Source: Hyphomicrobium sp. (GTDB lineage Bacteria; Pseudomonadota; Alphaproteobacteria; Rhizobiales; Hyphomicrobiaceae). Taken from it: a stretch of 64,000 nucleotides of DNA. The number at the start of each line of letters is the position of its first letter. The stretch's first letter is position 1. The notes beneath the pieces were generated by a model. The model was not told where the DNA came from and did no database searches. It saw only the letters and a program-made list of their open reading frames with translations. The translations under genes and the position numbers were made by a program. Below are positions 16,750 to 54,721 of the stretch, one piece after another. Where the stretch lies: NCBI GenBank assembly GCA_025351425.1, contig JANXVY010000094.1:1-64000 (forward strand), read 5' to 3'.

Positions 16750-16870
16750 CTCTTCCCCCTCGCCCCATTCCTGCACTCAATGGGGAGAGGGTTAGGGGCG
16801 GCGTCAAGCATCGGCGCCTGTTGCCGCCCCTCACCCTGACCCTCTCCCCGTGAGGACGGGGAGTGGGGAC
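16750..16870. repeat. Large palindromic dispersed repeat (CCCTCTCCCC family), intergenic copy
   Basis: The 138-base gap between mraY and murD is mostly this element: CCCCATT...AATGGGGAGAGGGTTAGGGGCGGC, then its inverse GCCGCCCCTCACCCTGACCCTCTCCCC and a terminal GGGGAG. The inverted halves meet near 16815. The same element is found inside murF (19504-19633) and between truB and rbfA (46498-46665). It supplies the purine-rich ribosome-binding region of murD. Confidence 0.8.
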
Positions 16871-18013: not shown

Positions 18014-19693
18014 TCAAGTTGAGCCGCACCCGTCTGAGAGCCTCGCACTATGGCTTTTTTTGAGCGCGTCCACGAGGGTGGACAGCTTCATCCCGTTCGA
18101 GCCCTTGATCATAACGACGTCGCCGCCCTTAACCGTCGCCAGCAGCGGCGCTTCGAGCTCGCGCGCCGTCAACGCCCAGCCGTCTTTGGCACGTTTTTCG
18201 GCGGGTAGCGCGTCGTACAAATGTCTCATGAGCGGCCCGCAGGCAAACACTAGATCGACGCCCGCCTGTTCGATCGGCGCCACTAGGTCGCGATGGAGCT
18301 CTGTTGACTGCTCGCCCAGCTCCAACATGTCGCCCAGGACTGCGATGCGGCGGCCGATCATAGGCTTTCCGTTGGCGTTGAGCCATTGAGCGGGATTATT
18401 CAACAGAAGAATCCCTAAAGCGGCTCGTACCGACGCGGGATTTGCATTGTAGCTTTCGTCAAAGATGTCCAACGAAGACGGGCCATCTGCAATTAGCTTC
18501 GGCACTGAAACCGTGGTTCTACGGCCACGCCCATCAACTGGCCCTAGCGTACTTAGTGGCCGCAGTGCGTCACGAATCCTCTTGAGCGATGATGGTAATG
18601 TGGTCGGTTGAAGCACTGTGAAGAGCGCTGCAACAACAGCGAGGGAGTTGTCTGCATTGTGCTGTCCAACCTGTCTGAGTTCATACTGAATTATGCTAGG
18701 TGCGTTATTGCCGTCGGGATTGCGAGTAGGAATTTGTAGTTTAATGACGGATCTGGACGGGTTAGGAATTAGCAATATCAGGATTACATCCGAGCCCGTC
18801 ACGCTACCAAATGAGATGCATCTTACGGATCGCTCTTTGGCGCGGGACTCCAGTAGATCAAAATACTGGTTTTCTCGCGGGAGGATCGCTGTATCGCCAG
18901 CTGCAAGGCCAAGAAATATTTCCGCCTTCGCGTCCGCGATTTCAGAGACGTCCTTGAAGTTGCCCAGGTGCGCGGGCGCTATGGTGGTGATAATCGCCAC
19001 ATGCGGACGAACCATCGGCGACAGCAGCGCGATCTCGCCTGCGTGATTCATGCCGATCTCGAACACGGCGTATTCCGTCTCGGCCGGCATGCGCGCCAAC
19101 GTCAGCGGCACGCCCCAATGGTTGTTGTACGACTTTTCACTCGCGTGCGTTTTGCCAAGCGGTGTCAGGCACGCGCGCAGCATCTCTTTCGTCGTCGTCT
19201 TGCCGGCCGAGCCGGTCACGGCGATCACACGCGCCTCTGGCGACAGCCGCGCACGCGCGACGCTGCCAAGTCGACGAAGTGCCTCCAACGGGGCTTCATC
19301 CGGTGCTATGCCATCTGCGGAATAGTCGACCCGCAACAGGCGCGGGTCGGTGTTGCCAGCGTCATAGTCGCGCCGCACGAGCGCTGCGGCCGCACCCCGC
19401 TCGAACGCCAGCGCCACGAAGTCGTGGCCGTCGCGGACGTCTTTCAGCGCCACAAACAGATCGCCGGGCTTCAACGTCCGTGTGTCGATCGAGATGCCGG
19501 ATATTCCCTCTCCCAGCTGCTTTGCGGGGAGAGGGTCAGGGTGAGGGGCGGCGCCAGGCAATGGCCCATCCTCGTTGCCGCCCCTCACCCCGACCCTCTC
19601 CCCATCCAAGCGCAGACGATGGGGAGAGGGGGTGTCGACGTGCGCACCTGTCGCGGCGACAATGTCAGCCAACTTCCACAGCGGTTCTGTCAT
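18014..19693 (-). CDS. murF: UDP-N-acetylmuramoyl-tripeptide--D-alanyl-D-alanine ligase MurF (with in-frame repeat insert)
   Basis: Adds D-Ala-D-Ala to complete the UDP-MurNAc-pentapeptide. The ATP loop GSAGKTTTKE starts at residue 161, with HAGEIALLSP, NHAD-like and DESYNANPASVRAAL motifs further on. At 559 residues it is longer than usual (about 450-480). Residues 21-63 are translated from a palindromic dispersed repeat and are rich in Pro, Gly, Arg and Asp (for example PHPDPLPAKQ); they fall between the first helix and the SGISIDTRTLKPGDLF strand. A second oddity is the AT-rich stretch at 18541-18860 (about residues 278-384). The start overlaps the murE stop as ATGA. Confidence 0.95.
   Translation of the reverse strand: MTEPLWKLADIVAATGAHVDTPSPHRLRLDGERVGVRGGNEDGPLPGAAPHPDPLPAKQLGEGISGISIDTRTLKPGDLFVALKDVRDGHDFVALAFERGAAAALVRRDYDAGNTDPRLLRVDYSADGIAPDEAPLEALRRLGSVARARLSPEARVIAVTGSAGKTTTKEMLRACLTPLGKTHASEKSYNNHWGVPLTLARMPAETEYAVFEIGMNHAGEIALLSPMVRPHVAIITTIAPAHLGNFKDVSEIADAKAEIFLGLAAGDTAILPRENQYFDLLESRAKERSVRCISFGSVTGSDVILILLIPNPSRSVIKLQIPTRNPDGNNAPSIIQYELRQVGQHNADNSLAVVAALFTVLQPTTLPSSLKRIRDALRPLSTLGPVDGRGRRTTVSVPKLIADGPSSLDIFDESYNANPASVRAALGILLLNNPAQWLNANGKPMIGRRIAVLGDMLELGEQSTELHRDLVAPIEQAGVDLVFACGPLMRHLYDALPAEKRAKDGWALTARELEAPLLATVKGGDVVMIKGSNGMKLSTLVDALKKSHSARLSDGCGST
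19504..19633. repeat. Palindromic dispersed repeat inserted in frame within murF
   Basis: The + strand reads CCCTCTCCC...GGGGAGAGGGTCAGGGTGAG then GGCGGC, and after a short centre the inverse GCCGCCCCTCACCCCGACCC and TCTCCCC...GGGGAGAGGG. This matches the intergenic copies at 16750 and 46498. Here it contributes about 43 codons to murF without stop or frameshift. Confidence 0.85.
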
Positions 19694-21201
19694 ATCGCGT
19701 ACTCCGCCATCGCGGACCGCAGCACCTCATGGTCGCTGAACGGCAGCACCTGCGTCCCCACGATCTGGCCGGTTTCGTGGCCCTTGCCGGCAACGACGAC
19801 AACATCGCCGGGCTCCATCATCGAAACCGCCGTCCGGATCGCTTCGGCGCGGTCGCCGATCTCCGAAGTGTTTTTCAATGCCCGCGATTGTGGCGTCGGC
19901 TCAGACCGCAAGACTTGGGTCATATAAATCCCTTGCACTATTTCGGCTCGGATCGCCGCCGGAACTTCGGTGCGCGGGTTGTCGTCGGTCACGATGACGA
20001 CGTCGGCTTTTTCAACCGCAATCTTGCCCATGATCGGCCGCTTGCCGCGGTCCCGGTCGCCGCCGCAGCCGAACACACAGATCAGCCTGCCGGTCGCGAA
20101 CGGGCGCAGCGCATCGAGGGCGGCCGCGAGCGCTTCGGGTTTGTGGGCGTAGTCAACGACGCCGAGGCCGCCGTTCGCCCGGCCGATGATTTCGAGCCGT
20201 CCTTTGACGCCTTTCAGGTGAGGCAAGGCTGCCATCATTGCCGCAGGATCTTCGCCGGTTGCGATTGCCAACCCTGCGGCCACCAGTGCATTCAACGCCT
20301 GATAGGTGCCGACCAGCGGCAGGTTCACGGTGTAGGTCACCCCTGCGTGCCGGATGTCCAAGCGTTGGCCGAACCCGTCCGGGCTGACAGACACGAGCTC
20401 CAAGGTGCCGCCGTTCACGCCCACCGTGACGATTTCGAGGCTATGGCTGCGTGCCGCTTCCAGCACGTCGAGCGCGTGCGCATCATCGGCGTTCACGACG
20501 GCTGTGCTGCCGGGCGGCAAAACGTTCAGGAATAGCCGCAACTTGGCGGCCAGATAGGCGGCGACCGTCGCATGGTAATCCAGATGATCGCGGCCGAGGT
20601 TGGTGAAGGCACCCGCCTTCAGCTTTATGCCGTCCAGGCGGAACTGATCGAGCCCGTGGGAGGAGGCTTCCATCGCCAGATGGGTCACGCCCTCGGCGCG
20701 CAATTCGGCGAGCGTGCGGGCGAGCGTGATCGGATCGGGCGTCGTCAGCGTGCCGTAGCTCGCGCCGCCCGGTTTCACGATGCCGAGCGTGCCGAGGGAA
20801 GCCGCCTTGTGGCCGGCGTGGGCGAAAATCTGGCGGGTGAATTCGGCGACCGACGTCTTGCCGCTCGTTCCCGTCACGGCGACGATCGTTTCAGGACCGG
20901 GTCCATAAAATCGAGCGGCCATGCGGGCAAGAGCGAGCCGCGGTTCGACGGCGCGCACGACCGGCACGGCGAACGGCTCCGGCAGCACAACGTCGTCGCC
21001 GACGAGAACCGCCGCGGCGCCTTTCGACACCGCGTCATCGATGAACTCGTTGCCATGCGCCTTGAAGCCTGGAACCGCTGCAAACAGAGTGCCCGGCACG
21101 ACGGCGCGGCTGTCCGCCGTCAGCCCGGTAATGGCGACGCTTGCGCAATCGCTGCCGGCGGAAACTTCCAGACCCAGGAGATCGGTGAGAGGCTTCGTCA
21201 T
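19690..21201 (-). CDS. murE: UDP-MurNAc-L-Ala-D-Glu--2,6-diaminopimelate ligase MurE
   Basis: Adds the third stem-peptide residue. The DNPR motif in VTDDNPRTE is the signature of meso-diaminopimelate specificity, so the wall is DAP type. The ATP loop GTSGKTS begins near residue 111. Three in-frame ATGs (21216, 21213, 21201) compete and none has a clear ribosome site; I choose the one giving MTKPLTDLL, 503 residues. The stop overlaps murF. A 190-base spacer with a dispersed repeat separates it from ftsI. Confidence 0.95.
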   Translation of the reverse strand: MTKPLTDLLGLEVSAGSDCASVAITGLTADSRAVVPGTLFAAVPGFKAHGNEFIDDAVSKGAAAVLVGDDVVLPEPFAVPVVRAVEPRLALARMAARFYGPGPETIVAVTGTSGKTSVAEFTRQIFAHAGHKAASLGTLGIVKPGGASYGTLTTPDPITLARTLAELRAEGVTHLAMEASSHGLDQFRLDGIKLKAGAFTNLGRDHLDYHATVAAYLAAKLRLFLNVLPPGSTAVVNADDAHALDVLEAARSHSLEIVTVGVNGGTLELVSVSPDGFGQRLDIRHAGVTYTVNLPLVGTYQALNALVAAGLAIATGEDPAAMMAALPHLKGVKGRLEIIGRANGGLGVVDYAHKPEALAAALDALRPFATGRLICVFGCGGDRDRGKRPIMGKIAVEKADVVIVTDDNPRTEVPAAIRAEIVQGIYMTQVLRSEPTPQSRALKNTSEIGDRAEAIRTAVSMMEPGDVVVVAGKGHETGQIVGTQVLPFSDHEVLRSAMAEYAI

Positions 21202-21334
21202 TGCCGTCGGCATCATCGCGCGCTGTTTTGGGGGTTGTGCAGGTTCGTTGCGATCGCCCGAGCCCTCGCTGGTTCATATGGTCCGCGGCTGGTTGCGTCA
21301 AACGTTAGGGACTTTCCGAAGCTCGGTTGCATCG

Positions 21335-46497: not shown

Positions 46498-46665
46498 TCC
46501 CTCTCCCCATGCTCGTCACTGGCATGGGGAGAGGGTTAGGGTGAGGGGCGGCCGCAAGTGCCGTTGGATTTGAAAGTTTGGATGCCAATAAACACGGCGC
46601 CGCGTGTGGGACCGCCGCTCACCCCGACCCTCTCCCCGTCAAGTGCAACAACGGGGAGAGAGGGA
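46498..46665. repeat. Palindromic dispersed repeat (CCCTCTCCCC family), between rbfA and truB
   Basis: CCCTCTCCCCATGCTC, then GCATGGGGAGAGGGTTAGGG and TGAGGGGCGGC; about 60 bases later the inverse CCGCTCACCCCGACCCTCTC and CCCGTCA...AACGGGGAGAGAGGG. The centre is larger than in the murF and murD copies, suggesting an insertion or divergence. It fills most of the rbfA-truB spacer. Confidence 0.75.
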
Positions 46666-54654: not shown

Positions 54655-54721
54655 CGCGTGTGGGGCGACCGCCCCACACCCCGTTCGGAGGGACACCCTC
54701 TGAACCTCCCGCCCTTTTGGA
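54655..54721. repeat. GC-rich double-hairpin repeat (copy 6), trmB leader
   Basis: GTGGGGCGACCGCCCCAC (54660-54677) then CGGAGGGACACCCTCTG (54685-54701) and AACCTCCCGCCCTTTTGG. Same two-hairpin order as copies 1 and 5. Confidence 0.55.

Follow-up and report, generated by a model that had tools for sequence, protein, structure and literature searches.

Dispersed palindromic repeats lie in frame within murF and other enzyme genes of Hyphomicrobiaceae

How does an essential gene come to hold a long palindromic repeat in its reading frame, and does the same happen in other genes and genera? This question is raised by murF in a 64-kb window, by which we mean the whole stretch of DNA that was analyzed (64,000 nucleotides; contig C41 of a 3.54-Mb draft genome of Hyphomicrobium sp. 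in 100 contigs). The murF coding sequence (18014..19693, minus strand, 559 codons; TIGR01143 above cut-off) lies in a murE-murF-mraY cluster and is the single murF found in this genome, with no second intact copy. Its start overlaps the stop of murE (19690..21216, minus strand) in an ATGA at 19690-19693 and therefore sits upstream of the repeat. Within the gene we located an inverted doublet of two hairpin units (19506..19630, 125 nt), composed of a type-A-like unit on the plus strand (19506..19552, 47 nt; G-rich on plus, second loop TCA), a spacer of 24 nt (19553..19576) and a type-B-like unit on the minus strand (19577..19630, 54 nt; G-rich on minus, second loop TCG). The inner arms (19526-19552 and 19577-19603, 27 nt) are 96% complementary, and the RNA fold of the murF strand over 19490-19650 reaches -102.3 kcal/mol (z -6.87; 0 of 200 shuffles equally stable), so the long inverted repeat that the original prediction described in murF is real. 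The prediction had also claimed that the repeat encodes residues 21-63 without a stop or frameshift; codons 21-63 indeed correspond to 19633-19505 on the minus strand (19505..19633), and the frame is open across all 559 codons when read from 19693 to 18014. In this frame the first unit is read from its C-rich strand as AAPHPDPLP (frame C0) and the second as GERVGVRGG (frame G2). The repeat is dispersed, as had been claimed, with 81 BLAST matches at E<=0.001 in the same genome (best match elsewhere 1.8e-24) and 49 occurrences of a 20-base core at up to 2 mismatches, compared with 2 for the reversed control. Both further copies that had been reported in the window are present by BLAST and unit pattern, one in the mraY/murD gap (16755..16867) and the other, a doublet, in the rbfA/truB gap (46499..46664), and the identities of mraY, murD, rbfA and truB were confirmed by NCBIfam.

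By sequence pattern, the murF repeat is assigned to the known G/C-rich intrastrand triplex motif (TM, also called TM-ECO or PIT); the fold computed here is the duplex, and the triplex is predicted. A typical unit of this genome runs CCCTCTCCC, loop, GGGGAGAGGG, a three-base second loop and GGGTGAGGGGCGGC, and 45 units show the hairpin CCCTCTCCC...GGGAGAGGG followed by the mirror G-rich third strand GGGTGAGGGG of TM, the sequences of which are given in the accessible part of Holder et al., 2015 (PMC4666352). That part of the source lists 23 TM copies in E. coli MG1655, all intergenic, and inverted pairs that in five of five cases combine a type A (second loop TTA) with a type B (CCG). The second loops of our 45 units are mostly one-base variants (TTA 14, TCA 13, TCG 15, TTG 2, CCG 1), and in 13 of 14 doublets (8 from this genome and 6 from the family genome G005, with L297 as the exception) a second loop ending in A is paired with one ending in G, so that inverted copies combine the two types here as well. 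Frame C0 of the C-rich strand (PHPxPLP) is open in 44 of the 45 units and frame G2 of the G-rich strand in all 45, and a TM doublet can thus be read through; a random GC-rich stretch of 50 bases is often open too, so these open frames are no evidence of selection. The fetched stretches of the genome held 34 clusters, and 33 after removal of L163, a core-pattern match without a hairpin that we discarded as a false positive; L175, a BLAST match with no core within 3 mismatches, was discarded as well. Across the family, TM cores (at most 1 mismatch) occur in 75 of 103 genomes, and the reversed control gave 0 or 1 per genome and strand. A search of Rfam returned 39 matches, all under gathering score, 38 of which were microRNA hairpins. 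In five copies of this genome (L165, L027, L177, L014 and L025), tandem GTGAGGGGCGGC-like units stand beside the hairpin.

We compared MurF across 119 loci, drawn from the family and other alphaproteobacteria, a set in which some genomes are counted twice. The family set comprises 103 genomes of 25 genera, 96 of which gave a MurF match, and this draft genome is the sole representative of its own genus. The Trp-to-DTR distance is 64 residues here, 25-35 residues in 118 of the 119 loci and 49 residues in L066, from genome G029. Among the full-length MurF matches listed, the alignment starts at about residue 49-64 (G029 excepted), and in an alignment of 39 MurFs the residues at the repeat that only this protein has are 21-46 and 50-59. 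The segment is therefore missing in relatives, as the original prediction expected, and since it also belongs to a repeat family, keeps the frame open and lies in a variable linker, the claim of an in-frame insertion is supported. We did not find the segment without repeat similarity in the MurF of any distant relative among the 119 loci. The prediction was only partly right about length: MurF is indeed longer by about the 80 residues stated (559 residues against a median of 474 in 38 aligned relatives, +85), but the repeat supplies about half of the excess, and other longer stretches confined to this MurF lie at residues 124-133, 326-333, 358-366 and 431-438. That the segment was instead ancestral in MurF and lost by the relatives is extremely improbable: although the insertion is undated because no relative of the same genus was compared, the segment is built of a repeat present in 33 clusters of this very genome, and the short linker prevails in all loci but one.

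An assembly error, in which two metagenome contigs were joined at a common repeat, also deserves attention in a draft of 100 contigs, one of which ends in a 96-nt foldback. However, the flanks of the murF repeat are two parts of one murF, in the correct order and frame and in the murE-murF-mraY cluster, and a false join at a repeat is not expected to rebuild a gene; in addition, the same kind of insertion is found in the isoleucyl-tRNA synthetase (IleRS) of two single-contig genomes (G042 and G061). We thus regard an artefact as highly unlikely.

Nearly as unlikely, in our judgment, is that the element goes untranslated, either because MurF starts internally past the insert or because its sole role in the murE-murF operon is a structural one, in mRNA or DNA. 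In favor of this, the hairpin in the mRNA is highly stable, possible start codons exist downstream of the insert (TTG at codon 74, the first, and GTG at codon 81), and Di Nocera et al., 2013 caution, in the accessible part of their text, that many N-terminal REPs are perhaps extragenic through misannotation (PMC3733652). Against this, all 39 aligned MurFs share four residues without exception, L5 and W6 upstream of the insert and D70 and R72 downstream, and a start at codon 74 would lose the latter two; moreover, the inserts in ileS and in the genes for valyl-tRNA synthetase, DNA ligase and hydantoinase, described below, lie well within their genes. With about 60 bases between the start codon and the hairpin, murE-coupled initiation should escape blocking. 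Judged by these residues and the gene layout, translation from the usual murF start through the repeat would be by far the simplest reading. In an AlphaFold2 model (mean pLDDT 89.7, pTM 0.88), the blocks covering residues 21-60 score 46-60 and most of the remainder above 80. The closest solved structure is MurF 4qf5, and eight of the top ten structures are labelled MurF, 4ziy carries the full enzyme name and 2am1 is a MurF. The model thus retains the MurF fold, with the insert predicted as a low-confidence loop.

The exceptional linker of G029 holds a palindrome as well, of a different dispersed family (E5), at the same site (L066:2560-2650). The flanks of this insert are MurF, and its best matches elsewhere are in the genome of the window (89%, E 8.9e-17) and in G030-G032; within G029 itself, the next E5 match reaches only E 0.03. 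The window contains a partial E5 copy by sequence match (54686..54719, minus strand), with more copies elsewhere in the same genome.

Such inserts are not confined to murF. In the genome of the window, a codon-usage scan of cluster flanks together with open reading frame listings identified in-frame TM in three of the 33 clusters, which provides the genome-wide count that the original prediction had called for: apart from murF, these are a doublet with tandem linker repeats in ileS (TM at C88:15582-15758, within C88:15542-15798, equal to L174:2043-2299) and a single unit in a hydantoinase/oxoprolinase gene (C9:19242-19299; L171:1990-2180). In G005, where we examined all 32 core places in 27 clusters with a codon model trained on the window rather than on G005, in-frame TM occurs in five of the 27, all in enzyme genes (valyl-tRNA synthetase, ATP-dependent DNA ligase, MazG, hydantoinase and indolepyruvate oxidoreductase). 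Other open-frame sites of G005, such as L291, L293 and L300, were by eye not enzyme genes and were left out of the count, and L172 in the genome of the window was excluded because by eye the likely start of an open reading frame is downstream of it. This recurrence in other genes and genera goes beyond the earlier prediction. The prediction had drawn a parallel with Rickettsia palindromic elements, which holds as a likeness of behavior, in that the repeat is dispersed and in frame; the repeat itself is TM.

Several observations accompany these sites. In the two hydantoinases, from two genera (L171 on C9 and L298 on contig C96 of G005), TM occupies what by eye is the same loop, after ...LRR-V--V--ALS and before ...FM-S-GGLK. 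At L176:3138-3347 (C100 of the genome of the window), a TM doublet in an open frame overlaps the 5' end of pbpC and may supply its start; candidate starts lie before, inside and after the element, and L176 was for this reason excluded from the count. The last 96 bases of C88 (L174:3185-3281) resemble the reverse complement of inner ileS, and this foldback, with the 5' part of ileS missing, is probably an assembly artefact. In another genus, an open frame of 100 codons (G052:C1:449431-449556, L069) is 64% identical to MurF residues 18-63, and from this similarity it is probably a TM doublet.

The ileS insert led to a loop that could be followed through the family, between PQWF--MD and the LR--AL helix of IleRS. 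Matches to IleRS were obtained in 100 of the 103 genomes, of which 90 were examined and 10 were not fetched; three stretches (G095, G064 and G091) were cut by contig ends with no loop visible and were dropped, leaving 87 loops, whose open frame is partly by construction since the loop-finding pattern demanded it. Loop length ranges from 14 to 113 residues (median 29). TM is present in 14 of the 87 loops, compared with 0.035 per 87 in a codon-shuffled control, and these come from eight of 25 genera, a count in which the genus of G071 is doubtful: its IleRS sequence hardly differs from that of G050, a different genus, so transfer or contamination is possible. One TM carrier, G096, has a stop within its IleRS match. 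The other palindromes found in the loop are E2 (13 loops, one alongside TM), E3 (2) and E4 (2), so that 30 of the 87 loops are filled and 57 lack all five repeats searched for. The median length is 18 residues in unlabelled loops and 43.5 in labelled ones; three long loops without a pattern match (G005, G006 and G051) stayed unlabelled, two of which (G005 and G051) look partly repeat-derived. TM, E2 and E3, the three loop repeats whose copy number was examined, are all dispersed in carrier genomes. E2 gave 6-56 matches in each of six loop carriers searched and none in G000 or G070, and E3 gave 78 in G011, 127 in G012, 104 in G013 and 13 in G010, again with none in G000 or G070. E3 fills the IleRS loop of G011 and G012, not that of G010, and the loop of G013 is outside the 87. 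In the ileS loop of G058 (L274), a 24-base sequence that reads GRGNDASE-like stands in seven tandem copies, in frame, after the TM unit.

The distribution of TM over these loops follows neither copy number nor descent in a simple way. The 14 loop carriers hold 6-44 TM cores per genome, but TM is missing from the loop in the TM-rich genomes G001, G007, G008 and G027, which have 62-114 cores; insertion thus cannot be predicted from copy number alone. On a quick tree of the IleRS flanks (87 rows, about 160 columns), in which 41 of the 84 inner branches are drawn open, at least 12 changes are needed to explain the TM label, and well-supported branches force six of them. Shuffled labels need 13.2 changes, and 90 of 500 shuffles were equally low, meaning that the carriers of TM show hardly any grouping by descent. 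Some of the gains could instead reflect horizontal transfer or loss. The clearest pair is G041 and G042, with E2 in one loop and TM in the other and flanks that are 96% identical.

These occupancies bear on whether the segments are adaptive: selection might maintain the disordered loops, rich in Pro, Gly and Arg, because they modulate the enzymes or have a binding partner. The frequent filling of the IleRS loop (30 of 87), the two different families in the MurF linker of two genera and the TM-rich genomes with no TM in the loop, which make copy number an incomplete determinant, would fit such a role. However, loop content can differ wholly between close relatives, as in G041 and G042, most loops (57 of 87) have none of the five repeats searched, the MurF segment has no confident structure in the model, and the enzymes hit are functionally unrelated. 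We therefore consider adaptation unlikely. TM and the other palindromes are most likely selfish repeats tolerated in exposed loops.

How the repeat moves was approached through transposases and insertion scars. The RAYT (Y1) transposase that characterizes REP/BIME systems is absent from the genome of the window by profile search (PF01797, 0 matches; the same search was positive in 5 of 14 control genomes), and it occurs in just 14 of the 103 family genomes, a group that does not include the TM-rich G001, G005 and G027. By eye, the units, most of which extend from CCCTCTCCC to GGGGCGGC, carry no terminal GTAG or CGTC tag. The flanks of the 14 doublets gave no sign of a target-site duplication (78 of 500 shuffles as high). 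As this genome is the only one of its genus compared, no empty site in a close relative fixes the insertion ends.

Overall, our findings support, at a probability that we put at roughly 85%, the reading that a non-autonomous TM in the form of an A+B doublet entered murF at a variable surface linker, is translated and is tolerated, and that the same process has acted elsewhere. We propose that TM and the other palindromes, being non-autonomous, would insert at many sites, that insertions breaking the frame or the fold would be lost, and that the survivors would be those with an open frame in exposed loops of variable length. The doublet would be read through where its length suits the frame, as may be the case in murF, giving a MurF with about 40 extra residues that are probably disordered. 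An exposed linker that already varies in length may tolerate these residues, and MurF would remain active and the insertion be nearly neutral. At least four distinct palindromes have come to occupy one IleRS loop, repeatedly and in separate lineages. A broader reading, that unrelated selfish palindromes share landing sites in the exposed loops of essential enzymes, where a lineage's own repeats enter the same part of IleRS, MurF and hydantoinase, are translated, decay and are exchanged for another family, and thereby give rise to new loops, we hold to be somewhat better than an even bet. If true, repeat turnover in Hyphomicrobiaceae would be a steady source of new loops in essential genes. The IleRS loop offers a natural series of empty and differently filled sites in 25 genera, which makes it testable whether such insertions are carried along neutrally or supply the material from which new segments of protein arise. 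The findings also hold a caution for annotators and structure modellers, since translated repeats may underlie loops that are rich in PHPxPLP and modelled with low confidence.

In-frame palindromes are known from Rickettsia and Wolbachia, along with scattered REP cases. Our literature search of openly readable texts found no TM in coding sequence (PMC10845240 and PMC7311995 contain the core string and are outside scope) and no protein loop filled repeatedly by different repeat families. Rickettsia palindromic elements (RPEs; Ogata et al., 2000) are described in the accessible part of PMC2229807 as dispersed palindromes of about 105-146 bp in frame in conserved genes, and a guanylate kinase carrying one was shown to be made and active (PMC2229807). 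The inserts described here agree with this account, as palindromes dispersed through the genome, 100-150 bp long and in frame within conserved protein genes (125 nt in murF; ileS; a single unit in hydantoinase), where they are apparently tolerated. They differ in that the organisms are others and that one RPE product is proven active, whereas the activity of this MurF is predicted; the likeness is one of behavior, by description, and we do not file TM under RPEs. GTAG/CGTC REPs, in the accessible part of Di Nocera et al., 2013 (PMC3733652), provide a second parallel, with REP dimers inside open reading frames, including those of tRNA synthetases, and a REP whose position in recB is about the same in two Xanthomonas species, much like the shared sites reported here. 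Unlike those REPs, TM units are without a GTAG or CGTC tag, and here various repeat families occupy one site across many genera. The closest match is TM itself as given in the accessible part of Holder et al., 2015 (PMC4666352), with which the repeat shares the core of CCCTCTCCC arm, loop, GGGGAGAGGG, three-base second loop and GGGTGAGGGG, the TTA-like and CCG-like second loops, the inverted A+B pairs and the dispersed copies. Several copies here carry tandem GTGAGGGGCGGC-like extensions that set them apart from TM of E. coli, and TM, always intergenic in E. coli MG1655 according to that text, here lies in some cases in frame inside essential genes.
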